Shown here piece after piece: positions 302 through 11,520 of a stretch of DNA of 64,000 bases (position 1 is the first letter of the stretch; every line of letters begins with the position of its first letter). The DNA is from Brumimicrobium aurantiacum. Lineage in GTDB: Bacteria > Bacteroidota > Bacteroidia > Flavobacteriales_D > Crocinitomicaceae. The translations under genes and the position numbers were made by a program. The stretch lies in assembly GCF_003402975.1 (NCBI RefSeq), contig NZ_QURB01000004.1:58966-122965 (forward strand), written 5' to 3'. The notes under the pieces were generated by a model that saw only the letters and a list, made by a program, of their open reading frames with translations, ran no database searches and was not told the DNA's origin.

Positions 302-310
302 CATTCTTAG

Positions 311-384
311 TGACCCCGGCAGGATTCAAACCTGCAACCGCTGGAGCCGAAATCCAGTGCGCTATTCAGTTGCGCCACGGAGCC
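311..384 (-). tRNA. tRNA-Arg (anticodon UCG)
   Basis: The minus strand folds into a complete 74-nt cloverleaf. The acceptor arms GGCTCCG and CGGGGTC pair with two G-U wobbles, the D stem is GCGC/GCGC, and the anticodon stem CTGGA/TCCAG encloses loop TTTCGGC, whose positions 34-36 read TCG (decodes CGA/CGG Arg codons). The T arm is GCAGG/CCTGC with loop TTTGAAT and the discriminator base is A. No CCA is encoded, which is common in Bacteroidota. Its 5' end (364-384) is the first unit of a tandem repeat running upstream. Confidence 0.93.
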
Positions 385-1149: not shown

Positions 1150-1518
1150 ATGAACACACTAAAATATAATCTTTACTTTTTAGAATCTCAATTTATTGGA
1201 TATCCAATGGTAATAAAAATCACCATTTTATTAATTACCATTTTATCCATAATTTACTTGATTTCATTATTGAGAATTTTTCTTATTGCAAGAACTCAAA
1301 AAATTGACAAAATGAGAGAGGAAACTATCAAGAAGAGATATGAAAATACTTTGCAAAAGATTTTGTTTACCAAAGAAAATATTTCTATCACTGAAGTCCG
1401 AAACAAATTAGGCATCAAGAATAGACAGTTGAAAGAATGGGAGAAATCAAAAATCACTCACTTAATAATCGATTTGATAAAACAAAATCAAAAAATCGAA
1501 TTAAAAACTGAACAATAA
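1150..1518 (+). CDS. Truncated paralogue of the HEAT-repeat membrane protein
   Basis: A 122-residue protein with an N-terminal membrane segment (about residues 20-48) and a basic, helical cytoplasmic tail. It aligns from its first residue with the next gene: MNTLKYNLYFLES against MGSLMYQLYYLES, then a matching membrane helix, a basic stretch and a KILF/EILF motif. It stops where the neighbour continues into about 260 further residues with HEAT repeats. It is therefore a tandem duplicate keeping only the membrane anchor and linker. Whether it is functional (an anchor-only regulator or partner) or a decaying fragment cannot be told from sequence. The frame is open and codon use looks normal. 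It is the first gene of the polysaccharide operon. No known family recognised. Confidence 0.7.
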   Translation: MNTLKYNLYFLESQFIGYPMVIKITILLITILSIIYLISLLRIFLIARTQKIDKMREETIKKRYENTLQKILFTKENISITEVRNKLGIKNRQLKEWEKSKITHLIIDLIKQNQKIELKTEQ

Positions 1519-1522
1519 TCTA

Positions 1523-1572
1523 TTAATTTCCGTTACATTAGTAGATTGATTATGTAATATAACGGAAATTAA
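1523..1572. repeat. 13-bp inverted repeat between paralogues
   Basis: TTAATTTCCGTTA (1523-1535) and TAACGGAAATTAA (1560-1572) are perfect reverse complements; ACAT (1535-1538) and ATGT (1552-1555) can extend the stem past a small bulge. The right arm ends two bases before the TTG that may start the next gene, so the structure could control its translation, act as an attenuator, or be the scar of the duplication that made the two paralogues. There is no U run after it. Confidence 0.7.
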
Positions 1573-1574
1573 TT

Positions 1575-2720
1575 TTGGGTTCATTAATGTATCAGCTTTA
1601 CTATCTTGAGTCAGCATTTGTTGGATTCCCATTTTTGATTAAAATCATTATTATATTATCCATTTTAATAGTTTTAATTTATATATCTTCGATTATTAAT
1701 ATTCTCTTTATTGCTAAGGGAAGAAAAAAAATAGAAAATCGGAAAAAGCTTATTAGGTCAAATTACGAACAAAAGTTAACCGAAATCTTATTCAACCCAA
1801 AAAACCTTACCCAATCAACAATAAGATCTGAATTAATTACTAACGAAATTGAATTTAAGGACTGGAGTAAAGTGTTTTTAACCAAACTAATTTTCGAAAT
1901 TATCAGTAAAAAAATGGACTTAAATATAAATAATTACAAAGAGACACTTAAGGCTCTCGATCTTCCTTCATATTGGGAAGAACAATTACGTAATAAAAAT
2001 ATTAAGGATGAAAGTATTGCTCTTCGTATTTTAGACGATATGAGTGAGGAAGCTTCTAGTAACGCCATTTCAAACAAAACAATTTCCCAAAACAAGAATT
2101 TAAGAAAGCATGCCAAGAGTATATTCATGAAGTTTGATTCAAATGATGCTTTTAAATTCTTAGAGGATGATTTTGACGAAGATTTTAATCCTTTAGACGC
2201 TATTCGAATACATGATTCATTAAAGGATAAATCCAAATCAAAATCTTTACCTCCATTAATCAGATATGCCCATTCAGCCAAAAACAAATTCTATATTGCA
2301 TTTTTAATTAAAGAAATCGGTTTTTTCAAACAAATTGACAGTGTTGACACATTAATTGACATGTTTCAAGAACCAAAGACTGAGGACGTTGTTAAAGCAC
2401 AAATAGCCGAAACTTTAGGTGTACTAAAATACGAGCCAGCAATTCCTATACTCATTGATGGTTATGACTTTGGTTCAACAGAAACACAAAGTAGTATTCT
2501 ATTTTCACTTGGAGAACTTGGTGGTGAGAAGTCAATAGAGTTTTTAAGTAAGCTTTATTACGAAACTCACAATAAAGAAATAATTATAAAAATATTACAG
2601 AATTTGCACTTAATTGATAAAAATAAAACTACTTTTAATAAGCTTAAAAGCTCAGCATCTACTGATTTCGAAAAATCAATATTTGATTACATAGATAAAG
2701 GTCATTCAGTTAGGAAATAG
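1575..2720 (+). CDS. HEAT-repeat inner-membrane protein of polysaccharide operon
   Basis: A protein of 381 residues with one N-terminal membrane helix (about residues 22-48), a basic cytoplasmic linker, a helical middle region, and HEAT-like helical repeats in the C-terminal part (about 225-350, for example around QIAETLGVLKYEPAIPIL and ILFSLGELGG). HEAT repeats normally bind proteins, so a scaffold or regulator of the adjacent glycosyltransferase is plausible but inferred. Start: TTG at 1575 gives an N-terminus that aligns residue by residue with the upstream paralogue; an ATG at 1587 is the alternative and would remove four residues. The next gene starts 20 bases downstream. Confidence 0.8.
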   Translation: MGSLMYQLYYLESAFVGFPFLIKIIIILSILIVLIYISSIINILFIAKGRKKIENRKKLIRSNYEQKLTEILFNPKNLTQSTIRSELITNEIEFKDWSKVFLTKLIFEIISKKMDLNINNYKETLKALDLPSYWEEQLRNKNIKDESIALRILDDMSEEASSNAISNKTISQNKNLRKHAKSIFMKFDSNDAFKFLEDDFDEDFNPLDAIRIHDSLKDKSKSKSLPPLIRYAHSAKNKFYIAFLIKEIGFFKQIDSVDTLIDMFQEPKTEDVVKAQIAETLGVLKYEPAIPILIDGYDFGSTETQSSILFSLGELGGEKSIEFLSKLYYETHNKEIIIKILQNLHLIDKNKTTFNKLKSSASTDFEKSIFDYIDKGHSVRK

Positions 2721-2740
2721 TAATAATCGATTAAAAGTAA

Positions 2741-4195
2741 ATGGAAAATATAACTTTTTTCTATCAATATTTCATCTTTATTTACTCTCTATCCATGACT
2801 GTAATCTACATCAGTCTGGCAGTTTTTGGGTACATCAACATAGTAAGAAACAAAAGAAAATATACATCAAAAGAAGAAGATGACTTAAATCTACTTCCTG
2901 AAGTTGCTCCAGGTATTTCTGTTGTGGCACCTGCTTATAATGAAGAGGTTATTATTATTGACAATGTTAGATCACTTTTAAACCTAGAATACCCTAATTT
3001 TGAGGTTGTTATTGTAAATGATGGTAGTAAAGATAAAACATTAGAATTACTGATTGAAGAATTTGATTTAGTAGAAATTCCTTATCCTTACATTCAAAAG
3101 GTAATTTGTAAGCCTATAAAAAAGATTTACCGCTCAAACACTAAACGATTCAGAAGGCTTACAGTAGTTGACAAAGAAAATGGTGGAACTAAGGCGGATG
3201 CGATGAATGCTGGGGTAAATGTTGCTCAATACAACTATTTCATCAACACAGATGTAGATTGTTTACTTGCCAAAGACACACTTACAAAATGTATCCTCCC
3301 AGTACTGGATTCTAACACCAGAGTAATTGCTGTTGGAGCAACATTGAGAATGGTAAACAGCTGTGAGGTTACGCATGGAGAAATCACACGTGTTCGACCT
3401 CCTGAACGCGTGATTCCTTTATTCCAAGAAACAGAATATCTTCGATCTTACTTGCTTGCCAAAATGGGATGGTCAATGTTTAATGTCATCCCAAACGTTT
3501 CAGGAGGTTTCGGCCTTTTCTACAAACCTGTTGTTATTAATGCTGGTGGTTATGATCCTTTATCTCATGCTGAAGACATGGACATGACCTTAAGGATGAT
3601 TGCATATATGCGAAATATCAATGAAAAATATAAAATTGTTCAAATTCCAGACACTTGCTGTTGGACAGAAGGGCCGCCAAACCTAAAAGTACTCAGAAGA
3701 CAACGTTCACGTTGGGGACGAGGCTTATTACAAATATTTGTAATTCATAGAAAATTTTTATTCAATAGAAAATATGGTAGAATGGGATTATGGGTGATGC
3801 CATACGCCCTAATTTTTGAGTTCTTAGCACCCATCATCGAATTTATCGGATTAATCTTCCTTTTCTTCTTACTCGTAAACGACCAAGTGAATTTCTCTAC
3901 CTTCTGGTTAATGCTATTATTCGTATATTTGATAGGAATCACGATTTCACTCGTTGCTATTTCCTTTGACATACTAACGAAGAAACATTACAATACATAT
4001 AGAGAATACCTTAAACTAATTATATTCTCTTCATTTGAAGCAATAGTATATCATCCCTTGATTGTTCTTTTTAGTTTACAGGGGTATATTCAGTTTTTAA
4101 CACGTAAGAATTTTAGTTGGGGAGATATGACAAGACAAGGATTTAAACAAACAGAAACCACGGATGAAAATATTCGACCTGAAGTAAAATTATGA
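2741..4195 (+). CDS. Processive family 2 glycosyltransferase (PgaC/IcaA-like)
   Basis: A membrane GT2 enzyme of 484 residues that should polymerise a beta-linked polysaccharide from nucleotide sugars at the inner membrane. Visible motifs: an N-terminal membrane helix (about 8-35), VVAPAYNEE (61-69), NDG (93-95), the metal-binding TDVD (170-173), SGGFG (254-258), AEDMD (277-281) and the processive signature QRSRW (321-325), followed by about four C-terminal membrane segments (350-465) and the WGDMTRQG tail seen in PgaC-like proteins. All expected catalytic residues are present. It sits between the HEAT-repeat protein and an outer-membrane TPR barrel, the gene order of an export machine. The sugar cannot be deduced: GlcNAc, glucose or another are all possible. 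Confidence 0.9.
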   Translation: MENITFFYQYFIFIYSLSMTVIYISLAVFGYINIVRNKRKYTSKEEDDLNLLPEVAPGISVVAPAYNEEVIIIDNVRSLLNLEYPNFEVVIVNDGSKDKTLELLIEEFDLVEIPYPYIQKVICKPIKKIYRSNTKRFRRLTVVDKENGGTKADAMNAGVNVAQYNYFINTDVDCLLAKDTLTKCILPVLDSNTRVIAVGATLRMVNSCEVTHGEITRVRPPERVIPLFQETEYLRSYLLAKMGWSMFNVIPNVSGGFGLFYKPVVINAGGYDPLSHAEDMDMTLRMIAYMRNINEKYKIVQIPDTCCWTEGPPNLKVLRRQRSRWGRGLLQIFVIHRKFLFNRKYGRMGLWVMPYALIFEFLAPIIEFIGLIFLFFLLVNDQVNFSTFWLMLLFVYLIGITISLVAISFDILTKKHYNTYREYLKLIIFSSFEAIVYHPLIVLFSLQGYIQFLTRKNFSWGDMTRQGFKQTETTDENIRPEVKL

Positions 4196-4208
4196 TTATA
4201 ACTAATAA

Positions 4209-7013
4209 ATGAAGATCCTAATAAAATACACAATAGCATTTTGCCTTTCTTTCGGTACTTTTTGTGCGTATAATCCTATTTATGCCCAAGAAGAAACTAA
4301 TCTTGAAGACAGAAGTGAGTATATTGATGGAATTATAGAATTATTTAAAAATAATAAATGGGAAGAAGGAAAAAGGGTAATCGATGAAGGATTAAATGAA
4401 TACTCAAATGACTCCGATTTAAGAATGTTAAATGGTAAATATTATCATTACAAAGGTCAAAATGACAAAGCAAGATTTGAACTTGTTAAATCATTACAAA
4501 TAGACCCTAAAAATGTTGATGCAAAGCAAATTCTTGTAAATGTTGAGTTGGAAACAAAACGATATTCAAGTGCGATTTGTTATGTAAATGAACTGTTAGA
4601 AGTTAACCCATATTGGAAAGGTTTATGGCGTAAAAAAATTCAATTATATAGATTACAAAATAACCACGTAGAAGCAGACCGATTACAAGAAAGAGTAAAC
4701 CAAATATACCCTAAGGACGAAGAGATTAGAAAAGATTACCTCTACTCCTTAGAACTGGAAGCAAGAAAGAAACGTAAAGAAGGGGATATAAATGGCGCAA
4801 TTAAGGTGAGAAAAAAATTGCTACAAGAGAATCCTGATCAAGTTGAAAACTATACTATCATTTCGGACAATTACATTAAGTCTGGAGATTTATATACTGC
4901 GTTAGGCTATATCGATAGAGGTTTGTCTCGCTTTCCGAACAACAAGGATTTAATCGATAAAAAATCAGGAATTTTAGCAGAACAAAATAGATATACAGAA
5001 TTATTACCTTTCCTCAAAAGTAAAGGTAAAACCCAACAATATGACTATTATTTATTGGAGGCGGCTAGATATTCAAAAAATCAAGAAGCACAGATTCTTT
5101 ACGGAAAAGTATTTGAAGACAACCCTGGAAATGATGAAGCTTTTGAAAATCTTTATAACTATTTGATTGCCGCAAATCAATATAACGAAGCGCTTAGAAT
5201 TATTAAGATTCATAGACAAAGTACTGGAAATTCGAAGAATTTATTGATGAGGGAAATCATGACCTATGAATTGATTGGAAATGACACTAGGAGTGCGGCA
5301 CTAACCAAAAGATTATATGAAAGTTACCCTAATGACTATGATGTACAATCCGCCTATGCGCTTATAATGTTAGAGGAAGCAAAGGACAAAATGAGTCAGC
5401 AGTTATATGCTGAAGCGATAAAAGATTGGTATATTGTTTTAGACAAGAGTAATGATTCTGAATTAGAGTATCAGGCAAGAAAATCTATTTTTAACTCCTA
5501 CTATCAAATGAATCAATACACTGAAGCACTAAATGTTTTGAATGAATTGATCGCCGAGCGACCTGAAGACAATGATTTATTTCTAAAAAGAGCAGACCTA
5601 TATTACAACCAAAAAAAATATGATCAAGCAATTCTTGCCTATAATAAACTTTTAGAAAAGGCTAAAGGAAAAGAAAGGCAAAAATACCTATATGGTTACT
5701 CTGCATTAAACACAAAAGTCGTGCAGGATCTCGTTAGCCAATACCATTATGACCAAGCTTTGAGAATAACAGAAAGTTGGATTGAGAATGACACAACTCA
5801 AGAATTTGCATATCGCTATGCTATTAACTTGTCCTATCAAACCAATAATCCTGACAAAGCTAAATTTTATGCAGAAGAAGGAAATAAAAAGTTTCCAAAT
5901 AACTTATTCTTCAAGATAAAATTAGCAGAAATTAGCGCTAAAAACCCTGAGAATTATAGTGTTGTCTATTATAATCTAAGCAATGAGCTCAATGAACACC
6001 CATATGATCGTGATTTGATTAATGCACATGCACAAGCAACCGAAGATTATGGCCATCAATTAATTCGCGGAAACAAGAGTCCTGAGGCGATAAGAATACT
6101 TAAAGAGGCAGTGAGAAGATCTCCCGAAAATATTGTTTTAAAGCATACACTTGGTCAAGCCTATGAGAAAATTAAAAATTACGATTCAGCATACTATTAT
6201 CAATCCTTTTACGTTCCCTCGGCAATGGAGATGCATGAGTTCAAACAATACATGAATTATTTGTATAATAGAACCCTCGATAATGAAATCGGTGTTCATC
6301 ATATTAGAAGTCGACCTGGAGATATAGATGTTATTAATCCTATTTCAGGGATACACTACACTAGGTATAAAGATAAAAACACCTACACTGGTAGGGTTAA
6401 TTATGCAGGTAGACCACCAGGAAAAGGATATCAATTGATGGGAATTTGGAATAGAGAGTGGAACTCGAAAACGAGAACAACAATAGATGCCGCCATTGCC
6501 AATCAATTTTTCCCAAGGATAAGCATCAACGGTTTACTTTCCAGAGATATTCAAAAATTTAAAGAATTTAGTGCAGAGATAGGTTTGGGATACAGATATC
6601 TTGATACAACAGGATCGAGTGCAAACCTAGACGACAGAGCTATGTATAACTTACTTTTAGGTGCTAAAAAAGTTATTGATGAATTTAGTTTATATGCTAA
6701 ATACAATAGTTTTATTTTAGATTATAATTATTTATTTAATTTTTCACTTAGTGCAAGATACAGCATCTGGTCACCGAAGCACTATCTAACAGCTGTAACT
6801 GGCTTTGGTTCATCTCCAGCAATTCAACTTTTAGACTATCAAATTTATGATGGAATTTCATCAATCAATACCATGGTAGGTGGAGGATTCTCATATATGT
6901 TTACGAAAAACATTACTTTTAGTCTTTTAGGAACATGGCATAATTACAGAACTGATGACGGGACCTTTAGAAATCATCACAACTTATTTCTCAATGTAAA
7001 TGTGGCATTTTAA
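4209..7013 (+). CDS. TPR protein with YaiO-type outer-membrane beta-barrel
   Basis: A secreted protein of 934 residues with a signal peptide (about 1-26, cleavage near YAQEE), a long series of TPR helical repeats (about 30-690), and a C-terminal beta-barrel of roughly 230 residues. The barrel has alternating aromatic strands and ends in phenylalanine, as outer-membrane proteins do for Bam recognition. The architecture, periplasmic TPR followed by a barrel, matches PgaA-type polysaccharide exporters, and the barrel resembles the YaiO family. It likely conducts the product of the adjacent GT2 across the outer membrane. It starts 13 bases after the glycosyltransferase and overlaps the next gene by 14 bases, so translation is probably coupled. 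The family call for the barrel is by pattern only. Confidence 0.82.
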   Translation: MKILIKYTIAFCLSFGTFCAYNPIYAQEETNLEDRSEYIDGIIELFKNNKWEEGKRVIDEGLNEYSNDSDLRMLNGKYYHYKGQNDKARFELVKSLQIDPKNVDAKQILVNVELETKRYSSAICYVNELLEVNPYWKGLWRKKIQLYRLQNNHVEADRLQERVNQIYPKDEEIRKDYLYSLELEARKKRKEGDINGAIKVRKKLLQENPDQVENYTIISDNYIKSGDLYTALGYIDRGLSRFPNNKDLIDKKSGILAEQNRYTELLPFLKSKGKTQQYDYYLLEAARYSKNQEAQILYGKVFEDNPGNDEAFENLYNYLIAANQYNEALRIIKIHRQSTGNSKNLLMREIMTYELIGNDTRSAALTKRLYESYPNDYDVQSAYALIMLEEAKDKMSQQLYAEAIKDWYIVLDKSNDSELEYQARKSIFNSYYQMNQYTEALNVLNELIAERPEDNDLFLKRADLYYNQKKYDQAILAYNKLLEKAKGKERQKYLYGYSALNTKVVQDLVSQYHYDQALRITESWIENDTTQEFAYRYAINLSYQTNNPDKAKFYAEEGNKKFPNNLFFKIKLAEISAKNPENYSVVYYNLSNELNEHPYDRDLINAHAQATEDYGHQLIRGNKSPEAIRILKEAVRRSPENIVLKHTLGQAYEKIKNYDSAYYYQSFYVPSAMEMHEFKQYMNYLYNRTLDNEIGVHHIRSRPGDIDVINPISGIHYTRYKDKNTYTGRVNYAGRPPGKGYQLMGIWNREWNSKTRTTIDAAIANQFFPRISINGLLSRDIQKFKEFSAEIGLGYRYLDTTGSSANLDDRAMYNLLLGAKKVIDEFSLYAKYNSFILDYNYLFNFSLSARYSIWSPKHYLTAVTGFGSSPAIQLLDYQIYDGISSINTMVGGGFSYMFTKNITFSLLGTWHNYRTDDGTFRNHHNLFLNVNVAF

Positions 7014-9144
7014 ATTAAATATAAACTTTTATTTCATCTTACTAGTGGCGAGTATGGGATGTTCTGCAAAAAATCATACTACCATAAATGCGAAAGGCTT
7101 CGTAATTAGTCATTCGGCAAATAACGAAAGTGTTGAACTTAGTACTTTAGCAATTTCAATTTTGAAAAAGCACACCAATGATCATTCAATCATACAAAAA
7201 TATTCTGATGAAAAATATCGTGATTATAAAAGAATACACTTCGAAGTAAATCCAGACCTTACACATGACTACTGCATTACGAAGACTTCTAACACCCTCT
7301 CAATCATTATAAAAAGCAAGCATTCAGCCATTTGGATAATTCATCAATTGACTGAAGACTTAAGTAAGTTTGACTCCCGTATCAATGCAGATGAACTCCT
7401 ACCTTCAACCGTAAACTTCAAAAAATCCAATTGCAATACTTTTGATTTTAATTATCGAGATCCTCATTACTCTACCAATCAAATAGAAGGAAACTCACTC
7501 ATCTTTGGAAATAATAATGTGGACATTGATTGGGGACTTTGGGGACATAATTTAAGCAAAATTATTCCTCATAATGCTGATTCCAGTATTTATGCGATGG
7601 TGAATGGAAAAAGAAATAAAAATCAATTTTCATTCTCATCTTCTAAACTGATAGAAATATTTGATGAATATGTACGCAATAACTTTGGTGATGGTTCTTC
7701 ACATGGTTACCACTTTATGATTATGCCCCAAGACAATCAATTGGTGTGCACCTGTGATGATTGCAAAAAATTAGGAAACACAGAAAAAAACGCTACGCCT
7801 GCAGTAAGCTTTTTCATCAAAGAAATGGCGAATAGATTTCCACACCATAAGTTTTTCACATCGGCATATCATACCACCCAAGAACCTCCAAAAGAATTTT
7901 TAGGTAAAAACACTGGGGTATTCTTAAGCTCTATCAACCTAAAAAAAGGTGTAAATCTTAACAAAAACCAACCTGAAACTACACGATTTCTTGAAAACCT
8001 AAAAAAATGGAAGGATTTAACTGAAAATATTTATTTATGGGATTATTCATCAAACTTTGATGACTACCTCACTCCTATTCCTGTTTTATATTCCCTACAA
8101 GAACAATTAAAATTCTACAACAAACACGGAATAAATGGGATATTTTTGAATGCTAGTGGTTATGATTATTCGCCTTTTGATGACCTTAAAACATTTGTAG
8201 CTGGGGAATTAATGAAAAATATAAATTCCAATATTGATACACTCATAGAAGTCTATTTAAAAAAACAATACCCAAAGAGTCATTCTCTTTTAGCTGATTA
8301 TTATATCTCCTTGGAACGTGATTTTGCCGCGTTAAAAAAACCGTATAATATGTATGGTGGTATTAATGAAATATTGAAAACATATCTTAATCCTGATGAT
8401 TTCATTGTATTCTATGATAAATTAGCTTCGAAATTAAAACAAACTGACTTTGACGAAATAGAACGAAAAAAATTAGATAAGCTATATACTGCACTTTCAT
8501 TTACTCGCTTACAGATTGCATATAATCATCCATTTAAGAAATATGGATGCGTTGCAAAGAAGAAAGATGGCATAAGCCTTAAACCTGAGATTTCTCATTT
8601 CTTAGTGGAATTGAAAAATCATTTTCACTATGATAATTTATCTAAATACAAAGAAGCAAGTGGAAACTTAAATGATTATATTCACTTTTGGGAAGAGATA
8701 ATTCAACAAAAGACATATCAGAATCTTTTACTTTTAGAAAAACCAATATATGTTCTTGTAGGAAATATTAATGGTGTTAAATATTTAAACAATGGGTTAC
8801 CTGCTTATGAAAATGATTATCATCATGGATGGCACATTAGTTATACCAATACGAAGTTTAAGTGTCATACAGAAGGTTTCAACGGGAAAAAAATCATTGA
8901 ATTAAGGTTTTTAAATAATAATCGCCATGGCTTTTACCCACCATCTCAAATTAATTTTACAGATGGAGAAGAAAAAATAAGAACCATCAGTATTGGCAAT
9001 TATGATACGAATATAAATTCATTAATAGTCAGGGTTGAACTTGATTTTACAGAACATACATCAATAGAAATAGAATTCATTCGTAGACCTTATTCAAAAA
9101 GTATGGTGGGATGTGATGAAATAAGAATTTTAAATGAATTATGA
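7000..9144 (+). CDS. DUF4838-type glycosidase-like lipoprotein
   Basis: 714 residues. The N-terminus has a hydrophobic stretch ending in SMGC (Cys21), a weak lipobox, so it is probably a lipoprotein. Residues about 60-130 resemble the accessory N-domain of family 20/67 glycosidases. The centre (about 200-460) fits DUF4838, with the characteristic CxCxxC motif (CTCDDC near residue 250) and a TIM-barrel-like pattern of hydrophobic strands. The C-terminal 130 residues look like a beta-sandwich. In this operon it may cut or edit the exported polysaccharide, as PgaB does with PNAG, but no NodB deacetylase motif is seen. Activity is inferred. Start at 7000 overlaps the barrel gene by 14 bases, supporting coupling. 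Confidence 0.75.
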   Translation: MWHFKLNINFYFILLVASMGCSAKNHTTINAKGFVISHSANNESVELSTLAISILKKHTNDHSIIQKYSDEKYRDYKRIHFEVNPDLTHDYCITKTSNTLSIIIKSKHSAIWIIHQLTEDLSKFDSRINADELLPSTVNFKKSNCNTFDFNYRDPHYSTNQIEGNSLIFGNNNVDIDWGLWGHNLSKIIPHNADSSIYAMVNGKRNKNQFSFSSSKLIEIFDEYVRNNFGDGSSHGYHFMIMPQDNQLVCTCDDCKKLGNTEKNATPAVSFFIKEMANRFPHHKFFTSAYHTTQEPPKEFLGKNTGVFLSSINLKKGVNLNKNQPETTRFLENLKKWKDLTENIYLWDYSSNFDDYLTPIPVLYSLQEQLKFYNKHGINGIFLNASGYDYSPFDDLKTFVAGELMKNINSNIDTLIEVYLKKQYPKSHSLLADYYISLERDFAALKKPYNMYGGINEILKTYLNPDDFIVFYDKLASKLKQTDFDEIERKKLDKLYTALSFTRLQIAYNHPFKKYGCVAKKKDGISLKPEISHFLVELKNHFHYDNLSKYKEASGNLNDYIHFWEEIIQQKTYQNLLLLEKPIYVLVGNINGVKYLNNGLPAYENDYHHGWHISYTNTKFKCHTEGFNGKKIIELRFLNNNRHGFYPPSQINFTDGEEKIRTISIGNYDTNINSLIVRVELDFTEHTSIEIEFIRRPYSKSMVGCDEIRILNEL

Positions 9145-9650
9145 TGAAAAGAGTATTTTATGCACTCATGGCTTTACTTACGATAGTTTTAACGATGAAC
9201 AGTTGTCAAGATGTATCGAATAAAAAAACAAGCATTCAAATTGTGGATAATCATCGACAATACTATCCTATTTTAAGAGGTCAAGAGCTAGAAGTTATGT
9301 TTACCATTAAAAATACAGGTAAAAACCCATTTATTCTCTCCGATCTTTTGATCACATGCGGGTGTATTGCTCCAAAAAAGTCATCTATACGATCAATTCC
9401 TGCAGGAAAAGAAGGTACCCTAATACTAAACTATGATAGTTCGAAGAATATTGGTGAAGTAAAGCACTATATTGACATCTATGGAAATTTAGAAAAAACT
9501 GAAAAATCATCAATTGTATTTGGCGTAAATGTGGTACCTCAAAGTGACTATACCAAGGATTACGAAGAACTCTTAAAAGAAAATATTGCAAATGGATTAC
9601 ATGAGTTTACAGATGGGCAAGAGCATCAAAGACTTTACTATTTAGAATAA
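9141..9650 (+). CDS. DUF1573 lipoprotein
   Basis: 169 residues with a signal ending LTMNSC (Cys22), likely lipidated. Residues about 40-135 form the DUF1573 Ig-like fold: a FTIKNTGKNPF strand, then the hallmark LITCGC and a PAGKEG turn. DUF1573 domains are extracytoplasmic beta-sandwiches of unknown role, frequent in Bacteroidota. It overlaps the DUF4838 gene by four bases (ATGA) and is the last gene of the operon. A second ATG directly follows the first. It may be a structural or binding partner of the polysaccharide machine. Confidence 0.82.
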   Translation: MMKRVFYALMALLTIVLTMNSCQDVSNKKTSIQIVDNHRQYYPILRGQELEVMFTIKNTGKNPFILSDLLITCGCIAPKKSSIRSIPAGKEGTLILNYDSSKNIGEVKHYIDIYGNLEKTEKSSIVFGVNVVPQSDYTKDYEELLKENIANGLHEFTDGQEHQRLYYLE

Positions 9651-9945: not shown

Positions 9946-11520
9946 ATGAAATCAAGTATTATCATAATTTTGATCATTCTGTTTAGTTTTAAAGCCTTTG
10001 GAAAGCAAAGCTATTTCGATAGTATTTATCGTTATACAGGTCAAAAGTTAATGACTACGGATCCTCAACAAGCATTAAAAAATGTTGATATACTTTATGA
10101 CATTTCAAAAAGCAATGATGAATTAATAAAATCTCTCTTATTAAAAGCAGGTTTACTGATGTTATACGGAATTAATGATGAGGCCGTTGTCATCTTCAAT
10201 CAAGCTGAAGTATTTGCTCAAAAAGAGAAAGATTATACTGCATTAACAAGAATCTATGGTTATAGGTCTTCAATATATAGAGAATCCGGTTTGGCTACTT
10301 CTCAACTTAAATCTCTTGAAAAAGCACTCGTTTATTGTAAGAAAATTGAAGAATATAATGTGCGCGTTAGATTTCTTGGAAATATTCAACATGAAAAAGC
10401 TTTACTTTTAAAAAATGAAAAAAAATACAACCAATCAATAGATGTCATAAGAAAATCTATTTCCTTATTCAATCAGATTAAAGATACCACCATAGTGGAT
10501 GTCGCCTATCATTTAACAAATAGCTTTGGTTTAATGTCTGAGAATAAGCTACTCCTTGGAGAAACAGATTCCTCATTTTATTATTTAGATTTGGCAGAGA
10601 AGCATCATTATTTATCCAACTATCCACAACCTACCATGCTTGGATTAATTTATAATGGAAAAGGTGAAGCCTATTTAGCCATTGATGAATTTGAAAAGGC
10701 CGAAGAAAACCTTCTAAAAGCAAAAAAGTGGGCTGATCAGACCAATTTTTTCGAACTTAAAAAGGAAGTTTACCCACTCTTAAAAGAGCTTTATCAAAAA
10801 ACAGGTCAAAATAGTAAATTTGATATGTACAAAGAAGAGTATAATAACATACTTGAAATGGAGAAAAACTCAAGATTAGTTATTGCCGATAAACTTATAG
10901 ATGCACTTTATGCTGAACAAAAGAACTTAGAAATAAAAGAACAGAAAAATTCAAGAATCATACTATGGTTATGTGTATTAACGGGCTTTTTAATCATTCT
11001 ACTTTCATGGTACATCTACAAAAAGAGGAAAAATCAAAAGAAATTTGACGAATATATTAATACATTAAACTCGAAAAATCAGGATGAAACTCTTGTAGGA
11101 ACCAATAATGTTGATGAAGAGCCAAGTGATTCGAAAAATTATATTTCAAAAGAAAAAGAACAAAGTATTTTAGAAGGCTTACAAAAGTTTGAGAAAGATG
11201 AATTATATCTGGATAGCAATGTCTCTTTAACTTCCGTTTCAAGTATAATTGGTGTTAATCAAAGGTATTTAACCTATGTGATTAAGAAGCATCTCTCAAC
11301 TGATTTTGCATCATACATCAATGAATTAAGAATTAATTACATTGTACAATTATTACGTAAAGAACCAATTTACCTATCCTATAAAATAAGTGTATTGGCC
11401 GAAGAAATTGGTTTCTCTTCACATAGTAGATTTACAGTAAACTTTAAAAAAGTAACAGGAAAAACTCCTTCTGCATACATCAATTATGTTAGGAATCAGA
11501 ATGAAAGAATGAGTGCTTAG
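9946..11520 (+). CDS. Membrane TPR sensor with AraC-type DNA-binding domain
   Basis: 524 residues: signal peptide (about 1-19), TPR repeats in the periplasm (about 30-310), one membrane helix (about 344-362, ILWLCVLTGFLIILLSWYI), a basic stop-transfer and charged linker, then an AraC/XylS double helix-turn-helix in the cytoplasm (about 400-520). Its second half has the usual signature AEEIGFSSHSRFTVNFKKVTG followed by PSAYI, written here in two parts. Such one-protein transmembrane regulators are common in Flavobacteriia and sense unknown periplasmic signals. Position directly after the polysaccharide operon suggests that it controls that operon. Its stop codon is one base from the stop of the convergent response regulator, with no room for a terminator. 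Confidence 0.85.
   Translation: MKSSIIIILIILFSFKAFGKQSYFDSIYRYTGQKLMTTDPQQALKNVDILYDISKSNDELIKSLLLKAGLLMLYGINDEAVVIFNQAEVFAQKEKDYTALTRIYGYRSSIYRESGLATSQLKSLEKALVYCKKIEEYNVRVRFLGNIQHEKALLLKNEKKYNQSIDVIRKSISLFNQIKDTTIVDVAYHLTNSFGLMSENKLLLGETDSSFYYLDLAEKHHYLSNYPQPTMLGLIYNGKGEAYLAIDEFEKAEENLLKAKKWADQTNFFELKKEVYPLLKELYQKTGQNSKFDMYKEEYNNILEMEKNSRLVIADKLIDALYAEQKNLEIKEQKNSRIILWLCVLTGFLIILLSWYIYKKRKNQKKFDEYINTLNSKNQDETLVGTNNVDEEPSDSKNYISKEKEQSILEGLQKFEKDELYLDSNVSLTSVSSIIGVNQRYLTYVIKKHLSTDFASYINELRINYIVQLLRKEPIYLSYKISVLAEEIGFSSHSRFTVNFKKVTGKTPSAYINYVRNQNERMSA

Follow-up and report, generated by a model that had tools for sequence, protein, structure and literature searches.

The compact gene cluster at 1150 to 9650 of a 64,000-nucleotide stretch of the Brumimicrobium aurantiacum genome (contig NZ_QURB01000004.1, positions 58,966 to 122,965; hereinafter referred to as the window) raises the question of whether it encodes a polysaccharide synthesis and export system, as an earlier note had suggested, and how such a system would be controlled. 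The gene set is real, conserved and horizontally mobile, and its most plausible reading is an exopolysaccharide module. Its most interesting point, a near-obligate pair formed by a HEAT-repeat protein and a GT2 synthase, exceeds what the earlier note had found.

Gene content and layout of the operon

All of the reported genes were found in the open reading frame listing on the forward strand of the window between 1150 and 9650. They encode a 122-aa paralogue of the HEAT protein without HEAT repeats (1150..1518; similarity to the HEAT protein N-terminus), a membrane-anchored HEAT-repeat protein (1587..2720; PF13646, HEAT_2, E=5e-9), a PgaC-like GT2 synthase (2741..4195; PF00535, E=2e-20), a predicted outer-membrane export protein composed of a signal peptide, a long TPR array and a C-terminal YaiO-type barrel (4209..7013; TPR_19, E=1e-31; PF19413, E=3.5e-7), a DUF4838 lipoprotein predicted to be a glycosidase (7000..9144; PF16126, E=2e-37), and an Ig-like DUF1573 lipoprotein (9141..9650; PF07610, E=3e-15). 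The identities proposed for the HEAT, GT2, TPR, DUF4838 and DUF1573 genes were thus each confirmed by a Pfam match. The HEAT gene start was taken as the first ATG (1587), and a TTG is present in frame at 1575. The spacing from 1150..1518 onward is 68, 20 and 13 bp of intergenic sequence, followed by overlaps of 14 and 4 bp, in agreement with the tight packing described before. A further gene on the same strand, encoding a TPR-TM-AraC regulator (9946..11520; HTH_18, E=3.5e-14), lies outside the range given for the system and was assigned to the same cassette, since it is missing at the empty site described below.

The count of five or six genes also held, except that the product of 1150..1518 is an anchor paralogue and not itself a HEAT protein: it showed 37% identity to the N-terminal/TM part of the HEAT protein. 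Two further Brumimicrobium species have retained the gene (pN/pS 0.22-0.41), and these ratios, which are rough because synonymous sites are saturated, indicate purifying selection across the three species. The paralogue was seen in three Brumimicrobium species only. Possible roles for it are to bind the synthase as a second subunit or to antagonise the HEAT protein.

The GT2 synthase and the adjacent HEAT protein

Among the E. coli synthases compared with the GT2 family profile, PgaC scored highest (118 bits), followed by YaiP (54 bits) and BcsA (28 bits). The window GT2 scored 119 bits against TIGR03937 (PgaC_IcaA), under the cut-off of 422 bits, and by its sequence the family diverges from all named synthases. 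The motifs ND94G, D171xD173, E278D279 and Q321RxR324W325 were invariant in 51 sequences, and four to five hydrophobic segments were identified in the protein. The window GT2 therefore carries the complete set of processive GT2 features (D, DxD, ED and QxxRW together with membrane segments), as had been claimed. No comparable second GT2 copy was found in the genome.

The HEAT protein contains one TM segment (residues 16-34) followed by positive charge, and the same was observed in 48 of the 48 relatives having a TM segment; the HEAT repeats are accordingly predicted to be cytoplasmic. The earlier note had placed the HEAT protein where other systems have PgaD. As a statement on genomic position this proved stronger than its author knew (57 of 61 loci, see below), and it is confined to position: the HEAT profile scored PgaD at 1.7 bits, which amounts to no profile similarity, and a distant PgaD was rejected as an identity for the HEAT protein on this score.

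The TPR-YaiO barrel protein

TPR matches covered most of the 4209..7013 product. The YaiO family PF19413 was silent when the whole protein was scanned and emerged when the C-terminal third was scanned alone, matching the C-terminal 334 residues with 30.8 bits against a cut-off of 23.9 (E=3.5e-7); the family was strong in the barrels of relatives (E=1e-14 to 1e-40). The presence of both a TPR array and PF19413 on the same protein bears out the proposed TPR-barrel fusion. In the AlphaFold model, the barrel (residues 601-934) consisted of 14 strands with a pLDDT of 87.6. Foldseek matched this model to OmpG, PelB and BcsC, with PelB and BcsC within the top ten PDB matches. The predicted fold is thus supportive of an exporter and unspecific, as ordinary porins match too. 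The score against TIGR03939 (PGA_TPR_OMP) was 21.9 bits, which did not reach the cut-off of 366.65. No proven export role for YaiO barrels was found in the literature searched.

The DUF4838 and DUF1573 lipoproteins

The DUF4838 protein scored 129.3 bits against PF16126 (cut-off 26.6), with D245 invariant and D348 near-invariant. Its AlphaFold model (pLDDT 86) was matched by Foldseek to the multi-domain TIM-barrel glycosidases GH20, GH84, GH115 and GH138, which include enzymes of beta-N-acetylhexosaminidase type; TM-scores were low when the full length was considered. Against the PDB, nothing was found with the single sequence, and an alignment query gave a match of the C-terminal domain to a beta-hexosaminidase. 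In addition, one relative carries a GH20b domain. On these models the protein is predicted to be a GH20/GH84-like glycosidase. A transcriptome study labels a DUF4838 protein from a different Bacteroidota strain as GH163, endo-beta-N-acetylglucosaminidase (PMC9870897), and a characterised GH163 enzyme cleaves GlcNAc-beta-1,2-Man (PMC10154615).

Lipoboxes were recognized by eye in both lipoproteins (ASMGC in DUF4838, MNSC in DUF1573). An acidic surface-export signal after the lipobox Cys was absent from both, and a periplasmic orientation is therefore suggested for the two proteins.

DUF4838 had been proposed to stand in for a NodB deacetylase. Since DUF4838 is glycosidase-like, its counterpart in PgaB could be the hydrolase half, but not the deacetylase half. 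A Pfam scan found no NodB deacetylase in the window operon, and phmmer with PgaB found no PgaB-like open reading frame in about 60 neighbourhoods; three NodB-family genes are located elsewhere in the genome.

Distribution of the HEAT-GT2 pair in Bacteroidota

Of the 396 Bacteroidota genomes sampled, 95, approximately a quarter, contained relatives of the GT2 (E<=1e-60), and 61 distinct GT2 loci from about 60 neighbourhoods of genome-search matches entered the census. A HEAT gene was located directly upstream of the GT2 gene in 57 of the 61 loci, with a median gap of -4 bp, that is, an overlap. Elsewhere in the same loci, only 5 of 834 open reading frames matched the HEAT profile (Fisher p=5e-79 for adjacency, with a profile partly built from these HEAT genes themselves). 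Generic background was rejected as the source of the HEAT matches on this low number, and because all five belonged to such loci or adjoined them. For members with low scores (20-50 bits), the match reflects generic repeat similarity, yet these members occupy the same position. The upstream partner in one locus (L058, 10676-12115) departed from the usual single membrane anchor in that its N-terminus matched LysM.

Other components were more variable. A CheY-like receiver was encoded within four genes of the GT2 gene in 41 of the 61 loci, its acceptor Asp being conserved in 37 of these 41, and a YaiO barrel was present in 42. A PF00884 domain was found in 18 loci, eight of them with the domain fused to the GT2, and one representative PF00884 protein resembled lipoteichoic acid synthase (LtaS) and phosphoglycerol transferase I (OpgB); from this similarity, PF00884 variants are suggested to decorate the polymer. 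In one such fusion of 1266 aa (L052, 7112-10909), the GT2 is joined to the alkaline-phosphatase-superfamily (PF00884) domain, and a polymer-decorating synthase is possible. NodB or GH18 domains had been considered for the fused GT2s of 1150-1270 aa and were rejected, the one scanned carrying a PF00884 domain instead. Another locus (L049, 5639-18182) contained two HEAT-GT2 pairs in one array, in the order HEAT-GT2-PF00884-YaiO-HEAT-GT2-YaiO-DUF4838-receiver.

DUF4838 was encoded in 15 GT2 loci. Across the 396 genomes it was found in 29, and 13 of about 28 good genes were within ~6 kb of this GT2 (binomial 3e-19 at a generous 1% chance rate); about half of the DUF4838 genomes had the gene without this GT2. 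DUF4838 is thus truly associated with GT2 loci, yet optional, since it is missing from 46 of the 61. DUF1573 was detected in seven loci, all of the window's clade: it is the third gene past the GT2 gene in seven of the seven other clade members and occurs in no other census locus, so that the DUF1573 lipoprotein is specific to this clade. The sister clade (11 loci) has HEAT-GT2-YaiO, mostly with DUF4838 and a receiver. The window set is therefore one variant of a much wider, phylum-wide HEAT-GT2 system, and the isolation attributed to it before is weaker than claimed.

Recurrence and horizontal transfer of the cassette

The gene-neighbourhood search advised in the earlier note recovered the order HEAT-GT2-TPR barrel-DUF4838-DUF1573 in seven other loci, and conservation of the genes without co-occurrence was not seen. 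The carriers are B. glaciale, B. oceani, Chryseobacterium lacus and four further genomes; a Chryseobacterium MAG near-identical to Chryseobacterium lacus has it as well. In the GT2 tree, the loci with the five-gene order formed a single, fully supported clade in which at least three families were mixed, and two members of one family fell in separate places within it. This topology indicates that the cassette has undergone horizontal transfer. The branches of the YaiP/PgaC outgroup were very long, and the deep root was left unused.

Within the genus sample, the GT2 was carried by 3 of 10 genomes, the window's own included. An empty site was identified in sister genome G043 (L112, C2:56000-64000), where an 881-aa gene, tRNA-Arg, a 231-aa gene, a response regulator and a kinase are present and neither the cassette nor the AraC gene is found. 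In B. glaciale, the cassette is flanked by a 230-aa gene on one side and by this same response regulator on the other. The AraC/TPR regulator is shared by the Brumimicrobium carriers and a single other one. In the window, the cassette is bordered on the left by tRNA-Arg(tcg) (310..384, reverse strand), the same tRNA that flanks the empty site. Also at this border are a perfect tandem duplication of 133 bp (1-260) and an array (364-551) with 3.4 copies of a 56-bp unit, in which the 5' end of the tRNA-Arg gene recurs. Integration at the tRNA may have left these repeats in 1-551 behind.

Comparison with known systems

The operon shares with E. coli pgaABCD a PgaC-related GT2, a TPR-barrel fusion, a glycan-processing lipoprotein and a membrane partner adjoining the synthase. 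It differs in having the HEAT protein and DUF4838 where E. coli has PgaD and the PgaB deacetylase/hydrolase, in its YaiO barrel with 14 predicted strands, and in a genome without GGDEF proteins. The Pga-like logic described before thus stands in the affinity to PgaC, the TPR-barrel fusion and the glycosidase-fold lipoprotein. Since the PgaC_IcaA and PGA_TPR_OMP models scored under their cut-offs and neither a PgaD-like protein nor an in-operon NodB gene was detected, the operon is, on sequence-based membership, not a Pga operon but one of the same plan. The E. coli yaiP-yaiX-yaiO genes with yaiS, to our knowledge uncharacterised as a cluster, likewise group a GT2, a YaiO barrel and a glycan-modifying gene; however, YaiO is a 257-aa protein without a long TPR array, no HEAT gene is present, and the putative deacetylase YaiS is found where the window has DUF4838. 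Cellulose systems (BcsA/BcsC/BcsZ) resemble it in combining a synthase, a TPR-barrel exporter and a periplasmic glycosidase, whereas similarity of the GT2 family profile to BcsA is low (28 bits), a BcsB-like protein is absent from the operon, and the genome is without GGDEF. The Bacteroides GH163/DUF4838 endo-beta-N-acetylglucosaminidases share the Pfam family with the window gene, and the GH163 label has been given in print to another DUF4838 protein (PMC9870897), but the characterised enzyme breaks down host N-glycans (PMC10154615), and the window gene is part of a predicted synthesis operon.

No experimental description of the HEAT-GT2 system or of the window gene set was found in the literature searched, in accordance with the earlier note. 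PMC9870897, on a co-culture of Polaribacter and Micromonas, gives MED152_03905 (GT2) as 8.8-fold and MED152_03915 (DUF4838, GH163) as 18.5-fold increased, and lists the two unlinked, as separate CAZymes. The tags leave space for one gene between them, which fits the GT2-YaiO-DUF4838 order of the sister clade; judging from these entries, we infer that the two genes belong to an operon of this type and are a probable relative.

Proposed function and alternatives

The anatomy of the operon points to polymer synthesis and export, and a synthase-dependent exopolysaccharide system, with the HEAT protein as partner or control of the synthase and DUF4838 as a glycosidase, is the reading that we consider likely. 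The inner-membrane GT2 would polymerise a sugar nucleotide, with UDP-HexNAc as the best candidate, and pass the chain to the periplasm, where the TPR scaffold would lead it to the YaiO-type outer-membrane barrel. The polymer probably contains HexNAc. The DUF4838 lipoprotein may act as a glycosidase that trims, edits or clears the polymer, and the DUF1573 protein would be an accessory lipoprotein.

In Proteobacteria, c-di-GMP acts as the switch for most exopolysaccharide synthases. No GGDEF protein was found in the window's genome (99.8% complete), control genomes giving the expected matches, and activation of the PgaD/c-di-GMP kind known from E. coli (PMC8461298) is therefore unlikely there. 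The HEAT protein, located beside the GT2 with its repeats predicted to be cytoplasmic, could be an obligate synthase partner and control point, comparable in role to PgaD plus c-di-GMP. Its partner position, predicted cytoplasmic face and the nearby receivers with the conserved Asp suggest a regulatory subunit; the main alternative is a structural or assembly role. In most relatives the stand-alone CheY-like receiver would probably signal to the HEAT protein, and in the window's clade control may have shifted to transcription through the AraC/TPR regulator. We tentatively propose, as an idea that may well prove wrong, that the phosphorylated receiver docks on the HEAT domain and switches the PgaC-like polymerase, which would make the HEAT proteins a new class of allosteric subunit in Bacteroidota without c-di-GMP and a phosphorelay counterpart of PgaD/c-di-GMP.

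Other products have to be weighed. A bona fide PNAG system, with poly-beta-1,6-GlcNAc as product and only the accessory proteins unlike pgaABCD, would agree with PgaC as the nearest of the synthases compared and with a DUF4838 fold pointing to HexNAc. We consider it improbable, as the GT2 is far under the PgaC_IcaA equivalog cut-off (119 vs 422 bits), the operon has no NodB deacetylase, the neighbourhoods gave no phmmer match to PgaB, and no PgaD-like profile match was obtained. A different polymer, such as a heteropolymer or a phosphoglycerol-decorated glycan, of which DUF4838 would be the specific clearing or remodelling enzyme, is a real possibility although not a likely one: the GT2 family is divergent from every named synthase, and PF00884 is carried or fused in 18 of 61 loci, the one scanned resembling LtaS/OpgB, but the window clade is without this domain and a single GT2 favours a simple homopolymer.

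A non-processive GT2, one that forms a glycolipid or modifies a lipid carrier while the barrel has a separate function, is very unlikely. The best single-sequence PDB matches of its N-terminal half are generic GT-A enzymes; against this stand the invariant QxxRW and ED motifs, the four to five membrane segments, a BcsA match across GT2 residues 257-379 and the frequent linkage to a TPR barrel (42 of 61). We give hardly any credence to a catabolic operon in which DUF4838 would break down glycans from outside and the GT2 would be only incidental. PMC9870897 discusses the DUF4838/GH163 gene amid N-acetylglucosamine use, and DUF4838 is present without this GT2 in about half of its genomes, but a SusCD-like pair is missing from the operon and the gene order, with a synthase and a barrel, is fixed clade-wide.

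Significance

Bacteroidota have a central place in the ecology of marine carbon and of the gut. If the HEAT protein of the preferred exopolysaccharide reading is a control subunit, it would explain how matrix polymers are regulated in this phylum, and the GT2-HEAT pair is a small unit in which this is directly testable. DUF4838/GH163 genes in such operons would then be parts of synthesis and not glycan-degradation genes.
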